Shown here: in pieces, positions 18,543-55,945 of the stretch
How positions within the stretch are numbered: the stretch's first letter is position 1
How the letters are laid out: every line of letters begins with the position of its first letter
DNA from: Siphonodentalium dalli
Taxonomy: Eukaryota > Mollusca > Scaphopoda > Gadilida > Siphonodentaliidae
Assembly (NCBI GenBank): GCA_032622095.1
Contig: CP136064.1
Span: 126,467,605-126,531,604 of the forward strand
DNA: 64,000 nt
Direction: 5' to 3'
The notes under the pieces: model-generated
Database searches by the model: none
Told to the model about the DNA's origin: nothing
The model's input: the letters and a program-made list of their open reading frames with translations, nothing else
Program-made: the position numbers and the translations under genes

Positions 18543-21500
18543 CATAATCTCTAACGGTCTATATTTTGTCAAAGATTATGTTCATAATTGATAATATGTG
18601 ATATGTATATTTTTCTACTGTAGAAAATTAGCGATCTAAACAAAATAAAAAATGAAGGCATATAATTATTAGTCTTTTAATTATACAGTCACAGGCACAC
18701 TAGCCTTTTGTGGGATCTTTTTTTCATATCCAGAATGTACTTGCATTCGACAGTCATGTGTCATCGGTGGCGTAATTCTTTTAAGTGATACTATAACTTC
18801 GATGGACAACATAAAACAAACTCACGGTGCATTGAAATACAGACAACAAATATAAAGTCAACAATTGCAACATTCAACAACAGTCAACAAGTTTGGACTT
18901 TTGTTGCAGCCCTGTTGTATACGCCGCGATTGGTAATTAAAAATACAATGCTCATTTAGCCAAAGAAAATGCATGTCATTCCATGCATGTTCTTTGTTTC
19001 TAGCCATTTTAAGTATCATACGCCATCGTAGAGGCATATATTTTGGAGCGTGTTGGTCGGGCCAATCTCACATGGCCACGTCAGATTTAGTTATTATTTT
19101 ATTTTCCCTTTATATATCTGCGTATCGTCAGTTTCAATACTTGTTTATATATATCCTATGTATGCATACTGTGGTGGCTCTGCAGTCGTTATAACTTTCA
19201 TTATGCCAAATTGTTAAACCGTTTCATGCGCCCCTGCCATAACATAAATAGCCTGACCACCAAAATTTAGCAAATCTAAAACAGATGTCTCCGACATTAA
19301 ATGTGTGAAAGATATACAGACCGCCTAAAGATTTCTGGAGCTATGTTATTAGGGCAGACGTGCCGGACATTTTCATTACGATGTCTCCAGAAGGTGAATT
19401 TAATTAGGCTGTCCAGCATAGCCGGCTAGCGCTGAGTAAATTCAGTGCCCTCTGGGAACCTCATCTGAAGTTAGTTGATTATTTGATCAAGGAGATTTGG
19501 ATCACAAGAGGGTTAATTTGGTGCTGCTAAATCGCCTATGCGAGGGGGAAACATCACTTATTCACCCTCTGAGGACCTCATTCTGCATATGTCTGGCAAG
19601 TTATTTTGAGGCCTGACGCTAGTGTGAAATCAGAAAGAAAACTCAAGTCTGAAACCAGCTGACCGTCGACAACATGCATGTATTAGTGACACATGCCGAT
19701 ACTGGGGAAAAGAAAATTAAATCTTTCACCATGTCGATGATCGAGTACTGCTGAGCTTTCAGATGAGAATTTAAATTGCTGGGGATGCCGTGACGGTCCC
19801 GAACAGATCTGATAAGGGGTCCACATGCGTGTAACATGTATTATAGCTAAAGGCTGAATAAAACCAAAATCATATGGAATTACAGTGAAAATATAGATCG
19901 TGTGTTTAATTTCTTGAATTCTGTGCGAACAATTGAAAACATCTGGAAAATAACTGACCACGGAAAGTAATTTTGAGAGCATATATGAAGTATATCAATA
20001 TTTTGTTGTATCTCAACATATATCTTGTGCCTCCTCCCAAATTAAGCAGACAAAATAAGCTTGATTGTTCGTCACACTCGCGGTTCTGACTGTCCCCGAA
20101 TTATCCTGGAACAATCGGGACCATGTGCGTCGACACTAAAAAATATTTGATTAATTTAGTGATGTGAAACCCTCCGATTACGAATGGAATAACAAATAGT
20201 TATGCCAAAATAGGTTATTTTCATAAATTTGATTCCAAACAATCAGAAAACAGGGTCAATGTTATAACCGAAATATACTCAATGACTGTTAATCATTGCA
20301 TGACGTAATGTTTATGTCCAATAATGCGTTCCGAATAAATTAGTAAATATTTACGTATATGTAGTTCAACAGTTGCATTCTCTCAAATGGTACAGTCGAC
20401 GTGGTTGGAATTTTCGACAGTCCACAGTTAATGCCACATTCTTCCAATGAGGATAATGTTTGGTTACTAACAGATTGGTTTTATTCAATGAAATAAGTCC
20501 ACAATATGTCTTCAACATATATTACCGGTGTATACATTAAATGAAAGGAAAATTATCACCGATATTACTCGCGTATCAGCCTTTAGCCAGAAACTCGTCA
20601 ACGTTGAAGCTATAGATACGACGGCTTTCTAAATTTATGCATACATATTTTTTTAAAGCATAATTTATACTTTGGACTGCGAAAGTATGCAAATTGGTGT
20701 TGGAAGATTGTCGTATCTATATTGGCGCCGTTGACGTGTTTCTGTTTCCGGGTCACACCACTTGGAGGAATTTCCGAAGAAATTGGCTTATTTTTGTGAC
20801 CCAGGGCACCCCCACCACCCACAGGACATTTTTACGCGATTTGGCCGGTTGGCACATCGATAATAATCAGAAAATGCACAAGCAACCATAGTTTATGTGT
20901 TTACGTGTTTTGCGGCTCGGTAATAACCTGAGACCGCACTATGCCGCAATTCGCACACACAATTTTATGTCAATTGATTGGCAATATTAGTTTAATTCCG
21001 ACTGAACGATAAACGTTATTCGCGGGGTCCCCTTTGTCATATTTTGCACTGTAGATCATACCATGAATATCTATTCTCTTACTTATAGGTCCTACGCCCG
21101 TATATAGATCATATTCCACCAGTAAACATTCAAACCCTGTGAACTGTTTAAAGTTTTGACAGGGAATTATAAGCGATTGTGCCATGCTTATAATTACGAA
21201 GATATATTCCCTGAATTATTTTGTCAACATTATAAGGTTTCCTATCAAAGCTTCAAAAAGTTCCCAGGTTTTGTTCCGGTGGAATATGATCTCTATGGGC
21301 ACAAGCAAGAGTGGATATTCATAGCATGATCCAATTTGGCGCGTGCCGTTGCTCAATCGACAGCTCCGTAATAACCAGATCATGCAACTCGGTTTGACCG
21401 GAAATTAAGTTGGTTCAAGTTTGAGATAAAGGGGATCTCACTAAAGTTTCTATTTTATACGAAATTTATCAATCAAGTTCCCTTAATTTGATTTGAGCTG

Positions 21501-22160
21501 AGGTTTACCGAGGTTCAAATAGGATGTAGTGGACAAGGTTGATCAATTATGTATAAAATAGAACATGTTTATTTGTTATACCGATTATCAGCTGATATAG
21601 TGTTATAGACATATATTGTACACTGATTGAAAAAAACGCACTATTTTTATGTTAAGGACATGCTACTGCAGTAAATCTGACAATAGCAACATAGCTAGGG
21701 TAATTTATTCTGATGAGTTTGGCATAAGATTACTAAGTTGATACTTGATAGACCGTTCCAACATTGGTCAAGTTTCCTGTTTGCATTTTATTATTTCTAC
21801 GAAGGACAGAGGGCAAATGCATCAAAATGCTGCTGCCAACATATTAGTTACACACATCTATTGAGTGCACATCTATATTGATGGATTGTCGATGCCTTTG
21901 CACTCTGTCCTTCAACTATTCATAATAACATGTGAACAACCAGGAACTTTGGCATTTTAGAGATAATCACACAAGAAGTCACCAATTGTTTGAGAATCCT
22001 GGAGAATCACTAAGAATGTGGTTTTCTGTAGTTCACAGAATGGTCATTGTCTACCAGTAGAACGCAGATTTGTACCTCGTGATGTCACGACATGTACAAA
22101 CATGTATATTGGTGATCGCAACGCTTTGTATGCACTTTAAAAAATGACAACTAGTCATTA
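18543..22160. other. intergenic, MITE relics only
   Basis: Two degraded copies of the 5.5-kb hairpin module lie at 19383-19463 and 19497-19586. A weak inverted repeat (ATAGATACGAC / GTCGTATCTAT) brackets 20609-20725. Several open frames of 60-100 codons here have no recognisable domain. I see no gene in this 3.6-kb stretch. Confidence 0.5.
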
Positions 22161-22305
22161 CCTTGTGAGTCTAAAAATACACCCCCCCCCCCCTAAATGA
22201 ATAAGGAAAAAATTTACGTGTAAATTTTTTACGCCTAGGTACCCCCCCCCCCCCCCCCCCCACCCCCGGTACGTTGTGTCCCGAAGTTTTTTTCCGGTCC
22301 CCCCC
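22161..22305. repeat. poly-C tracts
   Basis: Runs of C interrupted by TAAATG and by a T/A-rich stretch, at about 22183-22195 and 22243-22266. They are low complexity and are likely places for sequencing or assembly error. Confidence 0.85.
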
Positions 22306-22457
22306 CTGGTATATTCGACAAGTGCAACCGCATTTATGTCTTCGCCATCATTATCTATCCACGTTACCCTTCTTTTATAACACTTGCTCAGCTTGTGTGT
22401 TGAGTACCTCCTATGCACTTTTAAGATTTCTTCCTCTGTGGGTTGTACCTGCATTGT
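22306..22457 (-). CDS. possible exon, unrecognised
   Basis: On the reverse strand an ATG at about 22454 opens MQVQPTEEEILKVHRRYST, then HKLSKCYKRRVTWIDNDGED and INAVALVEYT before the poly-C tract degrades the frame. The composition (charged, Trp and Tyr present, no simple repeat) looks coding and unlike its surroundings. I cannot name a family. A plus-strand frame beginning at 22482 overlaps only its upstream side. It may be a pseudogene fragment cut by the C-rich insertion. Confidence 0.3.
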
Positions 22458-23408
22458 TGACGCCTTACGTACACACGGACGATGGACGACAAAGCCATGG
22501 TAATAGCTCAAACTTTACAAAGTAAAGTTGAGCTAATAAGTTTGTGTCAAAATAAGGAGATGAATTGTGCATTATTTTGGCCGATTGTGTGCAACCAGAA
22601 CAACAATTATAAGGTCGAAATCAAAGTAGACATGTCAGTACGTGCTTTAAATCCTCTTAATTCAATACATTCCTGCTAGGAATTGCGATTCCAAAAGGAG
22701 ATATCTGCTCGGAATATGGATATATCTGCAGATAAATGCAGGGATGGCCAGGGGGTGGGAGTGCAATATTAAGTGCCATACACAAGGTCCATTTGGGTAC
22801 GTGGGTGAGACAATTTGCCATATATATTAAAGTCTGAATATTTCCTCGGCAACAATGGAAGTTGGCAAAAACAGACATTATGTCACATACATATAATTAT
22901 ATACACCTTGTTTCCAGTATGATTCAGTTTCTTTCATGTACACATCAACTTGAAAAAAACCCTCATATGCTTTGTTGTATAGTTTTCTAGTGATCTGTTT
23001 AGACCAGATCCCTTTAAGGAATGAAAATTTGGTATTGACTGGGGAATGAAATTCTTATATAAACTCGCGGACACGTGTTGTTGACTTTTTTCATGAAGAT
23101 GAAAAAAATCCACTGAAAATTTATTTTTACTCTTAATAACCAGGTCAAAAGTCTATTATCATTTTGGGAGTATTGGAAAATACATTAACACCAGGGTTTC
23201 TCCGCAAATCGCTGTTGTCGTGGGCCTATAAGGGTGGGTGTCAAAACTTTGTGGGAGATAAAATGGGTTGGTATCTAAATTCGGCAGTCCAAAAAAATCA
23301 ACCTTGTGTATGCATTTTTATTCACCTCCCCTCTGGGATGGCATCATGTATCCGAGGGCGTATTCACTCTTAATAGCATTTTGTAGTATTTCTACACAAA
23401 TGTGTAGT
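22458..23408. other. intergenic with a short dispersed repeat
   Basis: AGTGCCATACACAAGGTCCA followed by TTTGGGTACGTGGG at about 22771-22806 recurs near 29108-29143 with few changes. Nothing else is supported. Confidence 0.45.
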
Positions 23409-23638
23409 AGAGGAGAGCGGGATCGGTTGTAACACTTTTTAGATTGTTCAACATTACAAGCTAGCCGCAGCAGAAAATGGAACGAGAGTTGTGTGGTATG
23501 CTAGTTCAGTATTCGTGTTATAATAATGTTTAAATACCGTTTTGAACTATAACGGCACAACTCAAATTACTTTTCATATAATTAGAGATATCGGCCGTGT
23601 TACAATTGCCCCTGTTACAACCGGCCCTGGTCTCCTCT
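23409..23638. mobile_element. MITE, 230 bp, 25-bp inverted ends
   Basis: The ends AGAGGAGAGCGGGATCGGTT and its diverged complement (AACCGGCCCTGGTCTCCTCT on the plus strand) form terminal inverted repeats of about 25 bp. GTTACAA is repeated just inside. No ORF. Confidence 0.65.
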
Positions 23639-23643
23639 AATAG

Positions 23644-23955
23644 TACACAATTTTATCCTGCTAAATATTGTGTAGAAATGATCAATATTAGAAATAAGTT
23701 GGAATATGTTCCAAATACCGAATAATCGGGGAATATCTACACAAAAAATTGTAACACAAAAATTTCAAATCGGGACCATAATTTTCACTGCAATATTTTT
23801 TTCTAGTTTTGTGCCCCAAATGGCAATAATGTCATTTACTAACTATTATTTACACGAATTATCCTCGATTATTCGATATTTGGAACATCTTCTAACTTAT
23901 TTATAACATATTTTTGGTCATTTCTACACACTATTTAGCGGGATAAAATTGTGTA
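23644..23955. mobile_element. MITE, 312 bp, ~70-bp inverted ends
   Basis: TACACAATTTTATCCTGCTA at the left is mirrored by the right end (TAGCGGGATAAAATTGTGTA). The homology continues through TTGTGTAGAAATG / CATTTCTACACA and ATAAGTTGGAA / TTCTAACTTAT to about 70 bp. It can be read as TA-flanked with ends CACAATTTT...AAAATTGTG. It lies 54 bp from the 3' end of the transposase ORF and shares the TGTGTA/TACACA theme with 52592-53382 and 58665-59045. Confidence 0.7.
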
Positions 23956-24009
23956 GTCTTACAACACAATACTTCTAAGCGTGTTGTCCATATGACGGAT
24001 ACATCCTTG

Positions 24010-26695
24010 TCACTCCATTTCAATATTGTTAGGTGGACAACATGCATATACCGTATGTGAGTCGTTTGACCCTTCGAGATACAAACATACTTGTTTTATT
24101 TCTCTGACATCTATAGCCACCTTCCTAGAGCTGGTATGGTGCAATGGACAACTAAACGCCTTCGTGTGTTTCATTTGAAAGTCTTGTGTGTTGTCATTGA
24201 ATGGGAACCACTGTTCTGATCTTTCTTGCAACATTGAAACTACGGCCAGCACATTTCGCCCCGAGCGACCTTGGTCGTTATATATGATGAATTGTTCGAT
24301 TTGACCAATTTTGCCATCAGAGAAACTCGCAGTAAAATTATTTCTGACGCTTATCCGAGAACAATCTCTGCAATGCAGTATTTTTCCGTTCAGACATAAC
24401 CGTTTGAATACACCAATGCGGCCAATGGGTACAGCATCAATATAATCTGACAAGGCATTGAATATGTCCGCTGATACGCCATGATTGATGTCAATTGTCA
24501 CAATTAGTCCCAATGCATAACATCCTAAGAACAGTTCTGTTTTATTTTTGGAATAATTGCTGTTCGACATGCTTTTCATAAATTCATTGAATTCTGTGTC
24601 GGCGTTCCCATTAACAAATTCTTTTCTCAATGCTGATAACCCGTGTACTATCGAAAACGAGTCCACGATTTGTGAATACACACATTGGGTACCCCTAATC
24701 AATTTCAGCAAAAATCCATTCGAATTTTCGAATGGAAAACACGAATAAGCCCACAGTGGACCTAGACGGCGGACATTGTCTGTTATATGGAGCAAGAAAT
24801 GAATATTTAATGTCTGAAAGCGCTCCTGGTACAGTTCAGAGAATATTGACACAAAATTCTCTAGAAGGTCCTCGCAATAATCTAACTCTAGAGGGCTAAT
24901 TGATATCTTCAGAAGAATGTATATCGCTTCGCTTAACATCAAGAAGTGTTGATATCTGGACTGGCTGATTATGTCCTTAAGGATGACTGGTCCATAATAT
25001 AAAAGAAACGATTTGTATTCGGACGCTTTCCAATATTTGATGTCTGATAGGCTACGTGGAGCTCGCTTAATAAAACACGGAGGCTTGATATTACACATAC
25101 GAGAACTCACTTCTCCAGATTTTGCGTGTGCTGAATATTGTTCTTTTGAAAAATCCTTTGAGAACCACAGTGATATAAGTCGTTTTGTAATGCCCAACAT
25201 GACACAGTGCATGTAATCGATGCAGTCACCTTTCACGAAATTATATGCTGAAAGTTCGGTCAACATGCATGGACCTTTAATCCCGGTTCGGTGTTTTTTG
25301 TTTTTTTCGTGTCCCTTCTCTACACAATTTACACAACTAGCGTGCGTTCTTTGCGGTCTGGTTGGGCCGTCAAATTTGAACGGAAATATATGTGACCTCC
25401 CCTTACCTGCAACTGCAGTCTGCCCGGCCTGTTCACACTGTGGACAACTAGCTTCTCCGTTGAATTGCATCATATTATTTACCATACATTTTGCTGGTAA
25501 ATCGGCTGTTGAACAAATCAAGTGACCGCGAACTGTCACCCTCGTTTAATTCTGTTGATATCTTTATACCAGTTTCTAACGTCTTAAGACTTTTAACAAA
25601 CGGATCTAGGAATGTGGACATCAGAGGTTTGTGAGAGCCTATCCACAAACCAGCAAGTATCATATTCTCTGGCTTTTGTCTGACGGTGTAGGGTAGTTCA
25701 TTTATCACAAAAAACAGTGGCCATATTGATGTCTTGCTACTTTTAAACAGACATGCTCCGTCTGTGTTCATCAGTAAGGTGAAGTCGTTTTGTGTTAAAT
25801 TGTGCGTTCTTCTCACATCCTGATAGTAAGTCCCATCGCAGATATCCTTTATGTTTCCATCCATATCTCGTTTGTATTTAGAATTTATAAGGGGAATAAA
25901 GTCAGTATTCTTTGTCAACATATTCGTAACCTGTTCAACGATCGGTGCCTCAACGAAAAAGTTTGTACTGCCCTTCGATACGAGTTGTTTTCTACACGCG
26001 GGACATGTCTTGTCATCGGAAGCCACTGGTTTCAAGCATGTGTTGCAATAATAGTGCCTCACTTTGTTCACCTTCAAATTGTTGAACCATTTCTTCAAAG
26101 CATAGGCCGATTTGGGTAATAAGTTCTTTTCAGCACAGTGAAGTCCAATCAACTGAAGCAAATCTGACAATCCTTCACTTGTTACCTTATGTTTTATTGA
26201 AAATGACATGATACCTAAAACACTTTCTCCCACTGTTAACTGTGACCCGTGGTAGAGCGGATAGTTTTCAAAGGCGTCCTCTGTATCCTTCGACATAACA
26301 TGTGGGTCATCAATTGGGTAATCCGACTTGTCATTTGATGCGTTTAGAACAACTATGTGTCCAGTTGTGTCATCGAATTCCAAACCACTTTCATCAAGGT
26401 CATTATTGTGATCACTCTCAAACGAATTTTCTGACATTGCATCTTGATCTTCATCATTCGCATCTGCGCTAGCAACATAATCTGTGAAGTCGCCGCTTAT
26501 AATAATATTCTCACTCCCTTGCAATGCCTCATGAGGGCTTTGGTCAGTCGAACGCAGAATATTCCAAACTGACGATTTTAATTCGTTGGGCGCATTGGAA
26601 AACGGGTGTCGATTTGTGAGGTAACTCTTATATGTAAGACCCGAAGGCCTGACACGCGGTTTCTTGGCCGGACATTGACGTTCTCGTTCATCCAT
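24010..26695 (-). pseudogene. CACTA/EnSpm (Tnp2-like, DDE) transposase with one frame break
   Basis: Two overlapping reverse-strand frames make one protein. Part 1 starts at ATG 26695 (406 codons), part 2 begins in another frame near 25539 and ends at 24010 (about 509 codons). Part 1 has an acidic region, a C4 zinc finger (residues 217-234, CNTC...CPAC) and NTDGACLFK, with the first catalytic Asp at about 312. Part 2 has VRGHLICSTADLPAK (second Asp), the Cys-X2-Cys insert FNGEASCPQC, the family signature IDYMHCVMLG and the catalytic Glu in CFPFENSNG. The order matches transposase family 21/Tnp2, which cuts and pastes CACTA elements. At the junction GAGGGT is followed at once by GACAGTT; a lost GT dinucleotide would explain the shift. 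There are no other stops in about 900 residues, so inactivation is recent or the break is a sequence error. I found no convincing CACTA terminal repeats. Confidence 0.85.
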
Positions 26696-27138
26696 GATGA
26701 TCCTGGTTCTGTTAAAAAAAAAAAATTACAAACTAAAAATATTGGTTGCATTCACCAATGTCTATTGGCTTGGGGACAGAAAAATTGCCCCGCTGACCAC
26801 ACTTGCATTGGAGCTCATTGAGGCCCCCGTGACCCCTATATATATTATAGATTACATGCTGCTTTGACGGAACGCATGATGAATTGCAGTCATATTCAGA
26901 AACTGACACATCTTTAATATAGTACTTTATATATTGAACTTTATAAATATAAACTGTAATATGAATAGAATATACTTAACATTGTAACGTGACGTTGCAA
27001 TGTATGCATTTGGACATTAATATAATTTCATCCTAATAATACAAAACAGAACAATTTACGCACACACCACTTGCGTTCAGGCACCAACTGAGGATGCCGG
27101 GGTGGGTTATCACACATGTAACCAATCATTAATGTATT
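26696..27138. other. 5' flank of transposase
   Basis: An A12-13 run lies directly upstream of the transposase ATG. The rest is AT-rich with TATATATATTATAG at about 26838. The element end should lie here, but I cannot place it. Confidence 0.4.
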
Positions 27139-27162
27139 TGGTGGCCCTGAAAAGGGCCGTTT
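27139..27162 (-). promoter_or_regulatory. canonical histone-type 3' stem-loop
   Basis: On the reverse strand the sequence AAACGGCCCTTTTCAGGGCC is followed by ACCA. The 16-nt core GGCCCTTTTCAGGGCC (27143-27158) is a 6-bp stem with a TTTC loop, identical to the metazoan replication-dependent histone mRNA element, and the flanks fit too (A/C-rich 5', ACCA 3'). In that class the element binds SLBP and sets non-polyadenylated 3' processing with U7 snRNA. It lies 25 nt after the stop of the 67-aa ORF, the usual distance for histones. I see no purine-rich downstream element after it. An AATAAA overlaps its 5' flank, so polyadenylation is an alternative. Confidence 0.8.
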
Positions 27163-27183
27163 ATTCATGCACCTTAGTGCTCC

Positions 27184-27387
27184 TTAATTACATCTTAAGT
27201 GTTTATTTACGTTGCTTATATTCCTATGTCTCATAATTCGCATAGCAATTTCTCTGGCTTGTTCATATATTTGCTGCTTAATTTGCAATTTGTGTAATTT
27301 TTGCATTAAAATTTCAGTCCCCATTGCGTCGGACATGTGTTTTTTCATAGCTATCAAATTCTCCTGCAATACGATGTCAGTCTCCAT
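27184..27387 (-). CDS. 67-aa helical protein with histone-like 3' end
   Basis: The ORF starts at a true ATG (METDIVLQENLIAMKKHMSD) and ends in RHRNISNVNKHLRCN. It looks like one long amphipathic helix, rich in Met, Lys, Gln and Ile (MQKLHKLQIKQQIYEQAREI), compatible with a coiled coil or a small basic nucleic-acid-associated protein. It is not a core histone or H1 by any motif I know. The distinctive feature is the perfect histone 3' stem-loop 25 nt downstream, which suggests an S-phase-type, intronless transcript. It is transcribed away from the BEN-domain gene across a 333-bp spacer. Against it: it is short, and the sequence after its stop (GAGCACTAAGG) could also be read as a CACTA-type element end. 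Function unknown. Confidence 0.5.
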   Translation of the reverse strand: METDIVLQENLIAMKKHMSDAMGTEILMQKLHKLQIKQQIYEQAREIAMRIMRHRNISNVNKHLRCN

Positions 27388-27720
27388 AGCTCAGTAGAAT
27401 AGAGTCGACACTCAACTATAACATAATACTCGGACACCCTCTTAAGTTACATAGAGGCGGAGCTAAAATTAGTACCGGGCATGGGTAAGTTTCAAACATT
27501 TCAATAAAAAATACATAAAAATGGAGGCAGCCACGAGAACAGATATTTCATTGGTTGTCGTGGACTCTGTAGCCCGCTGTGATAACCGACCGGTATATAC
27601 GTAACGTGCTCAGCCGATCCGAATAGCTATATATATGAGTGAACCGGCCTTTACAAGTTACTAACATTATTCTTCCTCTGGTTGCGTAATTTTAGTTTTG
27701 TTCAAATATTTGAAGAAATT
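27388..27720. promoter_or_regulatory. candidate bidirectional promoter
   Basis: A 333-bp spacer separates divergent start codons. For the plus strand, TATATATAT at 27628-27636 lies about 85 bp before the BEN-gene ATG. For the minus strand, a CCAAT box (ATTGG on plus, 27550-27554) lies about 165 bp before the 67-aa ORF, as in many histone promoters. Transcription starts are not visible, so this is inference from position and motifs. Confidence 0.4.
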
Positions 27721-30476
27721 ATGTTTGCGTTAGTTTATTTCACCGAAGATGGCGGAAAGTTTGAGTGTTTACCGATGAAAAAACTTGAGAAAACTGCTGC
27801 GACAAGTAGTGCTGAATTCATGCTCTTGGAAACTGTTTCTGTGCAATATAGAATAAAGGCATCCGATGGCACTGGCAAAGAACGACTTGTTGACATAGAT
27901 TACATTGGAACAGTTCAACTCATCCACAAAGGTAAGTACATAATTGATAATATATATACAACAGTCATGGGACTATTTCACTGGTTCAGCATTTTGATCC
28001 ACACGCAGGGACGTCGCTACAGGGGGTGGGGTGTCACACCACTCCCAATATTTTCCAAAATGTTCCACTTTTGGAAATTCGGAGGTCAAAAATCGAAATT
28101 TTGGGAATATTCAGTTGAAAATTTGGAAATTTTAGAATACTGGTAGTAGATTTGGAAAAAAATTAGACTCAATGGGGGGGGGAGCAAATGGAAATTCCGA
28201 AAGTTTGAACTTTTAGGGCGGTAGATTTGAAATTTTTTTATAGGGGGGGGGGGGTGCAAATGGTATTTCCTTTATTTGGAAACCTGGTATATTTGATTCG
28301 AAAAAAGGGGTGCAATAGGAATTTCGGAAGTGGACATCCCCATCCCTGATCTCTTCGCAACGTCCTTGTCCACACGATTCGATTATGGAACTATTTCATG
28401 AGGATATGGTTGTTCATTTAGAACCATTTATTTGGAAATACTATAAGGTCGACACGTCACATTTATAAAATTTCATATATATATATATTATTTAATATGT
28501 GAAAAAGTTGAACTAGTGCCTTATATATAGGACCTAAAACTAACTAACTATTGTCATGAGAACAAGCTGGGAAGCAATGCACTATATATATAAACTCTAA
28601 TAGTATGACAGGCTGCAATTTCACAAGCAGATCTCTCGGCAGAGACGTCCAATTACACTCAAATAATGCTTTTGGCTACCAATGTATCCTCGACATAACA
28701 AAGTCCCAGATACCATACCACATGAGATTTAAACATTTTATCAGCAGGATTCACAAACTCCCGGATTTGATTGCATCTTGACATTAATAGGGTTTTCAAG
28801 CTGCCGCGGAGGAAGATCGGTCAAGTTCCTTCTCTCTTCAGCAGCCTCAAAGAGCAATTAAAGCAAACTGGTGTCATGTGCTGGTTTTAATGTGGTGGTT
28901 CTTAGATATACAGTTCACTTTTTCCTGTTTTCCTGCCAAGAGCGTAACGTGGTCAGTGGGGTGGAGGGGCAGGCCGTGTAGCGGAGCGCTTTACGAGCCC
29001 CTGTGTTATTAGGCATATGCTCATCGGCACCTCAATACAATAAAATATGTAATTTACCCAGGGTCGGCAAAACCTACCAAGGGGTACAACAGGGGGTCAC
29101 ACAAAAAAGTGCCATACACAGGTCCATTTGGGTACGTGGGACGTGTCTGGGGCCGAAGCAAGTTTTCTCTTAAATGTTGCACATTTTATGCAAATACATT
29201 AATTTACCTAATTTTGACTTTAAAACAAACTGCATAATGATTATATTTATTGAATGTAAACTACAGTCTAATTAACAAAGCAAATCCTGTACCAATGGTG
29301 TATGGTATAATCTACTGAGTTGCTCTCATGCCATTGCTTTACATTAAAATAATTTGTGTATTAATACATTCTGTAAAAGACTTAGGCGTGGCCTTCCGTT
29401 GGTTAAAGGTTTCAAAAGTAAAGTGCATTGTGATGTTAAGGTCCTTGAGAAGCAGCTATGTGGTCCTGATAAGTACTTAGATAGTCCTGGAATTTGATTT
29501 TGAAAAATTTGTTTTGCAAATGTATCTATATCACATGCGTCCGGTCTAGATGTATATACCACATTCGTTACAGTATAACTGTTACAGATATACGAAATAG
29601 ATAAACATCTCCTGCGTGTACGTGGTATATATACAACTCGTAGTGTTTATATTTGACATATTTGACGTATAGTACATTTAAACCTAAAGCTTTACCCCCT
29701 GTGGTAAAGCAAATTTAATACTGGAAATAGACTGATGACGATTTTATATATACATGTATTTCAGGTGAAATTGATCGATGGCTATAACGTATACATCGAG
29801 AGAAATAAGGTCAACGCCATCAAGATAAATTCGAAGAAGAACTCGAAGAGATTTCTTCGAGACCTCCTCTCGTACTTCTTCCCTAATGACTACCTACACG
29901 AGCACTCGGCTACAGGGAGGAAGTCACAACTGAAAGGACTGCCAATAGAGATATTGGAACCAATTCGTGGTACGTCTTATTTATTTCAGTACGATATATC
30001 TACGGTGATAATGTTGGGTTATATGGTTATACGGTATACAGAAAAATTACAAATCTCGACCAATCAAACCAACCCAAAGAGCTTTTTTTTTCTTATCTTA
30101 CAGAACGTTTTATTTAGTGTGGTGTCATTCGTTTAATTGTCAAGTTTTTTCAGCATAGATACATTTAGTGTCTACACTTTACAATTAAAGTGGCTAAATT
30201 GCACAGGGTAATAAGACCTAATTTCTTTGGAATAGAAATAATAAAATAATGAAGCCGGGCCAGACAAAATCATTTATATCATCAACCACAACTGTCTTAT
30301 GTGATTATAACTGTGACAATTATTTTGGGTCTTATTGCACACTATATTGTTAATTAATTTATTTTTCAGCATATATGACAAAATCATACAGTATGCAGGA
30401 CATAAACACCACCATAAACAGGAAATGTCGAGACACGTCCAAAAGATACAAAGATACAGCTGAGGATGTTATTTGA
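27721..30476 (+). CDS. BEN-domain protein gene (three visible exons)
   Basis: Exon 1 (27721-27931) starts MFALVYFTEDGGKFECLPMK, a small beta-rich N-terminal module, and ends at AAAG/GTAAGT. Exon 2 (29765-29969; acceptor TATTTCAG, donor CGTG/GTACGT) encodes YNVYIERNKVNAIKINSKK, RFLRDLLSYFFPNDYLHEHS and ATGRKSQLKGLPIEILEPI. Exon 3 (30370-30476; acceptor TTTTTCAG) gives AYMTKSYSMQDINTTINRKC, RDTSKRYKDTAEDVI and a stop. Exons 2 and 3 together are a complete BEN domain: central LL..FF, TG+, LDP-like and the closing INRKCRD helix, and their splice phases agree. BEN domains bind DNA and recruit chromatin factors, usually in repression; a nuclear role is likely. Exon 1 ends in phase 1 but exon 2 opens in phase 0, so another exon in the 1.8-kb first intron, or other splice sites, must exist. 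Confidence 0.8.
28008..28372. mobile_element. inverted-repeat element inside the BEN-gene intron
   Basis: The left end AGGGACGTCGCTACAGGGGG and the right end (complement AAGGACGTTGCGAAGAGATC) are diverged inverted repeats, flanked by ACACGC and CCACAC. The interior has G-runs (8-10 G) and repeated GGTGCAAATGG / TGGAAATTC phrases in inverted halves. The open frame that exon 1 seems to continue into runs through this element and is not coding. Confidence 0.5.
28373..29764. other. rest of BEN-gene intron 1
   Basis: No further repeat pair except the short dispersed repeat at 29108-29143. An intermediate exon is required by phase, but I could not identify it. A reverse-strand frame at 29344-29562 has no recognisable feature. 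Confidence 0.4.
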
Positions 30477-32328: not shown

Positions 32329-33207
32329 AATACAGCGAATCAGAAAAGAAAGAAAACAGAAAGACTTACAAAGAAAACAGAAAGCAGCAGAAAACAGAAA
32401 GCATTTAGCTAATGTTCGGTAAGTTCAATCATCATTCATGGAATATTGAAACCTTTCTATACTAAATGGATTCTCCCAGTCAGTTAAAAAGTGTACACGA
32501 GAATGGTCTATTATTCATTTGCCGGTATCTACAGCAAACAATTAGTTCCTTCTAACCTACAAAATGATGTGCTGTAGGTGCAATGTGAATTAGGTGTCAT
32601 CTCTAACATTTAAAGACATATTATGGACTTGTTCGGGTACGTGAAATTGATAATTTAGTACTCAGACGCTATGCCAACTTGGGAAATGTAGCATTCTACT
32701 AACATTATCGAAATTTTCAAAGAAATCGACCATACCACTCCATAGAAAACATCGTCTGAACTTCGCCCAATTGTAAATATTTACATCTCGATTCGGGACG
32801 CAACTATCACCGATAATCTAACACAATGATTTCTCCATCGAGTGTCATTGCATTTATTTAATATATAAGAATGACGGTGTGTATCGTCAATTTGGATTAA
32901 TATTCGTAACAAATAACTACTTTGAGCAAGAATACATATCAATTTCTAATCGATCACCATACCAGAGTGTTTCACATAACTTTAATATTTCACATCCCCT
33001 CTCTACCATTTCAGGCACCACAACACCAGATGCATCCGCCGCTTCAACCTTCCACCTCATCCTCTCAGAGACGCCAAATACACCTATTGGAAACAGCAAA
33101 ATACCAAGACAATAAAGCAGACCAAGACACTGCCATCAACCCCTACCATATCAACGACATCACCAACACCCATACAGATTATCCATGTTACAGACGACGG
33201 GATGTAA
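32329..33207 (+). CDS. two phase-compatible exons, unrecognised basic protein
   Basis: Exon at 32329-32418 (acceptor TTCTTATCAATAG, donor TTCG/GTAAGT) is open in only one frame up to the donor: IQRIRKERKQKDLQRKQKAA, ENRKHLANV, a basic coiled-coil-like helix. Exon at 33015-33207 (acceptor CTCTACCATTTCAG) in the matching phase reads RHHNTRCIRRFNLPPHPL, DAKYTYWKQQNTKTIKQTK, then a Thr/Pro-rich part and IIHVTDDGM-stop. Other frames of the second exon are also open, because it is C/A-rich, so the frame rests on splice phase. Upstream exons are not identified. The coiled-coil ORF at 30667 might belong to the same gene. A weak ATTAAA lies at about 33297. No family recognised. Confidence 0.35.
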
Positions 33208-54194: not shown

Positions 54195-55945
54195 AACCGA
54201 TAACCGGACGTGGAATCGGAAAAAGCGGAATGTACGCATCGGAATCAACACATTGCAGGGTAAGTGTTTTGGCTTCTAATTACTCTCTCAGTATCATAGG
54301 CATGTTGTGCAATGGTATTTTCCTTAAACGCTATATGTCCAAATACATACATCAGACGAGCTGTTTCTGCTTATTTGCTGTGATCGAGAAAAATAAAACT
54401 AAAGTAGAAAACTCACATGTAAATAATGGCGTCTTCCACTTCAATGTGTATTGTCGCAGATAATAACTGATATCTACTTACATTGTGTCAGTTGTGTATT
54501 TTCCTGCCACGTTGGTGGTTCTATACGTATATAACACGTGCCACTATTGCGACAATTGTCATTTAAAATAAATATGTATCTGTATATATATATATATATA
54601 GCATGTTAGTGTTCGGCAGTATATGCCGGGAACTGTATGCAGTTTCCAGCACACTGCCGTACACTAACGTTCTACAAAACATATTTCAAATGAAAATATC
54701 TCAATAGTGGCAACATGTTATAAACGGATAGAACAGCGACAGGACAATGCACCATGGACACAATTTACATAAATATCAGTTATTATCTGCGAAAATACTC
54801 ATTTAAGTGTAAGACGGCATTATTTACATGTGAATTTTACACTTACGTTTTATTTTTCTCGATAACAGCCTACACAACACGTATGCTGTGTGTAATTGGA
54901 AATTTATCGTCTAAGGAAAATGCCGTATACATATTATGTAAATGATATTATGATATTTTTCGAGCGTTTACTTGGATTAGCACGAAAAAATTGTATTCAC
55001 AGTACGTGAGTTAACGTAAATTGGGGGTGGAGAGATCATTGTCATGTCGACCAATGAGAAGTTGTTATTAGATAGTTGTTGTCAGAGGATTATAGTTTGG
55101 TGAGAGTTCATTCTAGCCTAACCAGTCGAGACAGGAGGTCACTTTTATTTTTTATATATTTGAACACGTAATAGAATATGCAAGCTTATAGTACATCAAA
55201 GCATTGTTTGTGCTTTTCTCGATAACAGCCTACACAACACGTATGCTGTGTGTAATTGGAAATTTATCGTCTAAGGAAAATGCCGTATACATATTATGTA
55301 AATGATATTATGATATTTTTCGAGCGTTTACTTGGATTAGCACGAAAAAATTGTATTCACAGTACGTGAGTTAACGTAAATTGGGGGTGGAGAGATCATT
55401 GTCATGTCGACCAATGAGAAGTTGTTATTAGATAGTTGTTATCAGAGGATTATAGTTTGGTGAGAGTTCATTCTAGCCTAACCAGTCGAGACAGGAGGTC
55501 ACTTTTATTTTTTATATATTTGAACACGTAATAGAATATGCAAGCTTATAGTACATCAAAGCATTGTTTGTGTTTTTCATATCTTGTCATTGAGAATGAA
55601 TTTCCGAACATTGTCGCTGCGTACGAATGGGGTTTCGGAAAACAGGTTTCCGCCTTGTTTTTCCCCCAGAAAATAAAGGGGGTTTTTACCTAGGCGGTTT
55701 TTCCTGGCCGACTGCGCAGTTTTCTCGATATGTACAATAACCTGTATGTCCACATGTGCCCACAATATTCTCTGTATATTATGGATCGGCTTATTTGCAA
55801 TATTTCGAGTTGTTTATTGTAACGTCGAATTGGGAATACTGTAAATGATACTGAGAGAGTAATTAGAAGCCAAAACACTTACCCTGGTGTTTATTCCGAG
55901 GCGTATATTCCTCTTTTCCCGAATTGACTTCCGGTTATAGAAGGT
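54195..55945. mobile_element. foldback element, ~1.75 kb, near-palindromic core
   Basis: The ends 54195-54297 and 55840-55945 are inverted and include a 40-bp perfect stretch (GGTAAGTGTTTTGGCTTCTA and on). From about 54300 to 54960 the sequence folds on itself around a centre near 54638 (hairpin GTTAGTGTTCGGCAG / CTGCCGTACACTAAC). Matching blocks are TCGAGAAAAATAAAAC, ACATGTAAATAATG and GCAGATAATAACTGATAT. The right arm is lengthened by a 360-bp tandem duplication. No ORF of transposase type. Confidence 0.75.
54854..55573. repeat. 360-bp tandem duplication, two copies, one mismatch
   Basis: 54854-55213 and 55214-55573 are identical except for G/A at 55081/55441. The unit begins TTTTCTCGATAACAGCC, inside the right arm of the foldback element, so the duplication came after the insertion. 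It is either very recent or an assembly artefact. Confidence 0.95.

Follow-up and report, generated by a model that had tools for sequence, protein, structure and literature searches.

Histone-type 3′ stem-loops at the ends of small Polinton-type genes and in a transposon spacer of Siphonodentalium dalli

The closest described systems for the locus analyzed here are the replication-dependent histone mRNA 3′ end (RF00032, SLBP/U7), the Polintons/Mavericks (adintovirus-like), and the tnp2/Transposase_21 DNA transposons. SLBP is limited to S phase, and U7 pairs with the purine-rich element; as usually taught, the histone stem-loop hardly occurs outside replication-dependent histone genes. Our sites share with that system the hairpin consensus, the AAAC and ACC flanks, the short distance from the stop codon and, in most of the Polinton gene classes, a purine-rich element placed as in histone genes; they differ from it in that the genes are not histones and in that the site from which we started has no purine element. 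The elements that we read resemble Polintons in their DNA_pol_B_2 polymerase and A32-like ATPase but differ in that some of their small genes, as a set, have histone-type mRNA ends. As in tnp2/Transposase_21 transposons, there is putative transposase homology beside our starting site, and repeated copies with internal deletions occur; unlike in those transposons, there is a divergent BEN-type gene and, in a single one of the copies that we read, a spacer that holds both an ORF and a histone-type hairpin. In the literature searched we found no earlier report of histone-type mRNA ends on a set of Polinton genes, judging by the titles and the opening lines of abstracts among the papers listed, none of which concerns such ends on Polintons/Mavericks or viruses; the words ‘histone’ and ‘stem-loop’ are absent from the main text of PMC11071308.

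The window, that is, the whole 64-kb stretch of DNA that was analyzed, is C4:126467605-126531604 of the 2.227-Gb genome (9 contigs); the features discussed here are collected in Table 1. A first-pass annotation, made from the letters of the window, had described a reverse-strand ORF with a true ATG (P0001) that stops shortly before a perfect histone 3′ stem-loop with correct flanks on both sides, and had proposed a check with the Rfam stem-loop model. The description is accurate: RF00032 passes its gathering score at this site, the sole match to do so in the whole window, and the stem-loop with its flanks (5′ AAAC, 3′ ACCAAAT) matches an H4 gene of the host arrays letter for letter over 27 nt. 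The best flank match is an OTU-like Polinton gene (28 nt equal; vide infra). From base composition, ~8e-8 copies of AAAC-stem-loop-ACCAAAT are expected genome-wide, so the window hairpin needs common descent or selection, not chance; it is the host's histone-type 3′ element. A whole-genome RF00032 scan did not place the window site among the 75 best candidates scored. Also as annotated, the purine-rich downstream element is missing (the best score after the hairpin is matched by 23% of simulated flanks), and AATAAA overlaps the upstream flank, inside ATAAAC, a position at which the OTU-like Polinton genes have AAATAAAAC.

Table 1. Positions of the features in the window, counted from its first nucleotide.
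Feature	Position	Strand	Evidence or remark
P0001, 67-aa ORF	27184-27387	-	ATG start; stop 25 nt before the stem-loop
Histone-type 3′ stem-loop GGCCCTTTTCAGGGCC, 6-bp stem and 4-nt loop, flanks AAAC / ACCAAAT	27143-27158	-	RF00032
RF00032 match	27118-27163	-	34.7 bits vs gathering score 34
Place expected for the purine-rich histone downstream element	27110-27142	-	none recognizable
Putative tnp2-type transposase gene, two overlapping frames	24010-26695	-	Pfam
Transposase frame 1	25475-26695	-	DUF1258 8e-12; Transposase_21 2e-5, below cut-off
Transposase frame 2	24010-25539	-	DUF4218 1e-3, below its cut-off
Private spacer with ORF and stem-loop	26722-27466	.	no second copy found
Repeated segment: upstream region and first part of the BEN-type gene	27467-29512	+	86-99% copies on C3
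BEN domain, just under cut-off	ORF 29735-30136		Pfam

The annotation had also taken the stem-loop to be rare outside histone genes, and this view does not survive a count in the genome. The exact 18-mer GGCCCTTTTCAGGGCCAC has 1985 copies (956 + 1029) in ~2.2 Gb, with 0 for a reversed-pattern control. Sorting on the exact 3′ flank assigns 614 sites to the MDPL/MPSL kind, 346 to the OTU-like kind, and 95 to the MSTP kind; these Polinton-type flanks are the commonest (1055/1985), a histone-like 3′ flank is found at 578 sites (some of them outside the histone arrays), and the remaining 352 have flanks of no listed kind. Polinton-type genes are ended by 27 of the 30 sites fetched from the 18-mer list, including all 20 of the first-listed sites (19 identified by a protein tag and one, L047, by its frame) and 7 of 10 isolated sites that were hand-picked from 100 listed, some with altered frames; the other isolated sites are L074, which ends an H4-like gene, and L076 and L078, which have no recognized protein. 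The five top RF00032 matches genome-wide (43.2-44.2 bits, L001-L005) have the MPSL-type flank and outscore the array histone genes. The settings of the hairpin in this genome are histone genes, small Polinton genes, and the lone window site, which lies in a tnp2/BEN-type transposon spacer. The histone genes are found in tandem arrays at C5:111.42-111.74 Mb and C8:156.30-156.93 Mb (units mostly ~3.9-4.0 kb); the H4-like gene of L074 stands alone at C1:61128694.

The hairpin-bearing elements are identified as Polintons by the predicted polymerase and ATPase that they encode: PF03175 (DNA_pol_B_2) is matched in L055 (3.3e-36) and the A32-like ATPase PF04665 in L055 (3.3e-8) and L043 (7.7e-7). The label ‘OTU-like’ for one of the small proteins is our own reading; there is no OTU match in Pfam. 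The gap between stop codon and hairpin is 18-22 nt in intact MDPL, MPSL, OTU-like, and MSTP frames, 13 or 20 nt in MSEIPE/MTAIPE frames, and 13 nt in L071 and L075 (two sites known from 441-nt pieces only), and one MSTP frame (L072) extends to 2 nt from the hairpin; the histone gap is 29-36 nt, and that of the isolated H4 gene is 27 nt. In a leave-one-out scoring of a purine motif that we seeded with AAAAGATA, 11 of 12 classes have the motif at ≤3%, namely the 4 histone classes and 7 of the 8 non-histone ones; it lies 11-13 nt past the hairpin, except in L076, where the distance is 18 nt. Some of the classes are interrelated, so that the 12 tests are not independent, and L076 is not established as a Polinton. 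The class in which the element was not found at ≤3% is an OTU-like one (L071/L075).

The Rfam model gives a concordant count in two of the loci, with four matches at or above gathering score in L025 and four in L028, one per hairpin gene; L069, L071, and L073 also pass, L043 and, among the 10 isolated sites, L070, L072, L075, L076, and L077 have the hairpin letters and score <34, and neither L055 (the PolB/ATPase stretch) nor L056 has a match at gathering score. The proteins encoded ahead of the hairpins are far apart: MSTP (L043) and MDPL are 24% identical over 83 positions (E 1e-4 in a single comparison), and the L071 gene and the OTU-like gene are 22% identical over 81 positions (E 2e-4). 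Since the hairpin is common to genes with proteins this dissimilar, it appears to have been kept while the Polinton proteins diverged strongly. Tandem hairpins are found after a small MTAIPE/MSEIPE-type gene (L025:4220-4262, L028:1856-1899); the second of these has a paired change (GGTCC/GGACC), and the purine element comes after this second hairpin. No relatives of P0001, the ATPase, or MDPL and no stem-loop pattern were found in the viral contigs, and the putative histone-type ends on Polinton genes are known from this one genome.

One family of these elements also shares an upstream sequence. In L025 (L025:3000-6147), all four hairpin genes have one module 76-88 nt ahead of the start, CAGGAAA.ATTTGTCA.TTTTAACG.CAA with near variants, that is found in L028, L029, and L038 as well. 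Allowing ≤5 mismatches, the module precedes 4/4 hairpin genes in L025, 4/4 in L028, and 3/3 in L029; L038 has it before two of the three genes whose hairpin lies inside the locus and before an OTU-like gene that runs off the end, and one small gene of this locus has no recognizable module. L028 has one extra copy with no frame behind it. At the same tolerance the module is missing from the window, the histone loci L022-L024, L055, and L056, and also from L043 and L044; these last two are of a second Polinton family, which thus carries the hairpin but not the module. A separate word, GATCC, is seen upstream of H2A, H2B, MPSL, MDPL, and MSTP (L022, L025, L043) and is absent upstream of H4, the OTU-like gene, and P0001.

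These gene ends suggest that the Polintons borrow the histone way of ending messages. The stem-loop and the purine element would place the small genes under the host SLBP/U7 system, to which the best-studied family would add a common promoter module; the small-gene messages would then be without poly(A) and reach their greatest stability in S phase, the time at which the element can replicate, and the PolB and ATPase genes would escape histone-type control. A search for the U7 snRNA found none above cut-off in the genome (best 26.8 bits vs 34); of 14 control genomes, 12 likewise gave nothing above the cut-off in this search. From the arrangement of these sequences we consider it reasonably probable that the Polintons have a histone-like set of unrelated small genes, with a module in one family, a stem-loop, a U7-type purine element, and a tie to S phase, and that the hairpin has also come into the window spacer, where, within a cut-and-paste transposon, it perhaps serves a new small gene. 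If this is true, mobile DNA can join the S-phase, poly(A)-free mRNA route via abundant virus-like elements, poly(A)-selected RNA data miss such Polinton transcripts, and the timing of Polinton gene expression becomes testable.

The annotation had proposed that P0001 is a small, possibly S-phase protein that has acquired histone-type 3′ processing or that a histone 3′ UTR was captured. The first alternative amounts to a working small gene, that is, a 67-aa transposon-borne or host protein with an mRNA that ends histone-style. Its frame begins with ATG (an in-frame TGA stands 2 codons ahead in the raw sequence), and its gap to the hairpin is longer than that of nearly all intact Polinton frames (13-22 nt) and shorter than that of the histone genes (27-36 nt). 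Among simulated local sequences, 1.4% (276/20000) contain an ORF of ≥67 aa that ends ≤70 nt from a fixed point, a chance rate that makes the ORF suggestive, unproven as a gene. Of random open codons, just 0.2-0.8% attain the codon score of P0001; when the 75 ORFs of 55-100 aa in the window are ranked, however, P0001 comes no higher than 8th and 4th, and it is outscored by another frame across the same stretch. The score is mildly gene-like, and P0001 may be a real gene. The perfect hairpin core, where nothing past the near flanks resembles other copies, also speaks for a gene in use.

The searches for relatives point the other way. P0001 has one copy genome-wide and no relative in its own genome, the viral contigs, phages, PHROGs, or Pfam above cut-off (no histone match; only MCRA, sub-threshold), and no relative in the PDB (best E 3). 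Against 8372 frames of the fetched loci, a set without the four loci that overlap the window, P0001 matched itself and one other frame at E 1.2. It is also absent from the sibling transposon copies that we read (vide infra), and the purine element is missing at its site. We therefore regard a working gene as somewhat unlikely: what stands of the annotated proposal is the true histone-type element on a non-histone frame and the plausibility of capture, and what is unproven is the 67-aa S-phase protein, a single-copy frame with no relative and no purine element.

The site lies within a probable transposon. The order in the window is a tnp2-type transposase gene on the same strand as P0001, the spacer, and a BEN-type gene on the other strand; DUF1258 is above its cut-off, and Transposase_21 scores 24.1 bits vs a cut-off of 28.6. 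Copies on C3 align on both sides of the spacer (L018 at 98-99%; L019 and L020 at 90-98%), and the middle is absent from them: in L018 window position 25035 is joined to 27499, and in L019/L020 25438 is joined to 27467. Because these are two differing breakpoints, both within the transposase frame, we infer that the siblings arose by internal deletion from a longer element and do not testify to an insertion into the window. The copy at C3:61.33 Mb (98-100% identical) comprises window 20214-25035, 27499-29512, and 32750-32884, with 2.46 kb deleted internally and an overlap of 8 nt where the deletion ends join. None of 17 other matches to window 25300-27480 extends past 26721, where 5 diverged copies (77-78%) stop. 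The diverged copy at C3:61.24 Mb, followed through its whole 3798-nt spacer to the BEN side, has neither the hairpin nor P0001; in the other diverged copies there is no hairpin within the first 1500 nt past the match (the stretch read). As far as the search shows, the spacer would be private to the window copy.

With a tnp2-type transposase adjoining the site and the word CACTAAGG after the P0001 stop, the hairpin could be part of a DNA-element end, that is, of a CACTA-like terminal repeat, as the annotation had allowed. This reading is highly improbable: the window contains no CACTAAGG partner and no second CACTAAGGTGCATGAATAAACGG at ≤3 mismatches, a shorter word occurs at chance level (47 vs 46.9 expected), and the flanks of the hairpin are not multicopy. 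A CACTA-type terminal repeat at the hairpin is thus largely refuted by the lack of a partner in the window. The result that the annotation had named as one that would refute its proposal on P0001 was half obtained: the stem-loop core recurs many times with no such ORF beside it, and the segment that flanks it has no further copy.

The hairpin and ORF could also be a diverged fragment of another Polinton small gene that was dropped into the transposon; the longest flank match is to a Polinton gene, Polinton-type flanks are the commonest kind in the genome, and the OTU-like class L071/L075 is equally without a purine element. Nevertheless, tblastn of the window with the frames from 8 Polinton loci gave no Polinton gene at E 0.01 (the sole matches of L056 translated frames are short repeats at 31.8-32.1 and 50.1-50.4 kb), the comparison of P0001 with the other fetched-locus frames was no better than the E 1.2 match, and the module is absent from the site. 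We judge a Polinton relic unlikely; as to the source of the hairpin, these searches found no Polinton protein near it.

A captured or orphaned histone-type gene end is, from the sequence features at hand, most likely what the window site represents; the exact core (27-28 nt) in unique surroundings, with neither purine element nor module, favors it. Taking the two subjects together, we lean slightly toward the joint reading that the window has such a captured or orphaned end and that the Polintons are under the host histone mRNA system. A transcript of the captured or orphaned end, if made, could bind SLBP via the hairpin; with no purine element for U7 to pair with, its processing would be poor or polyadenylation would take over. 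Elsewhere in the window, a 360-nt unit is present in two tandem copies with 99% identity (54854-55578).
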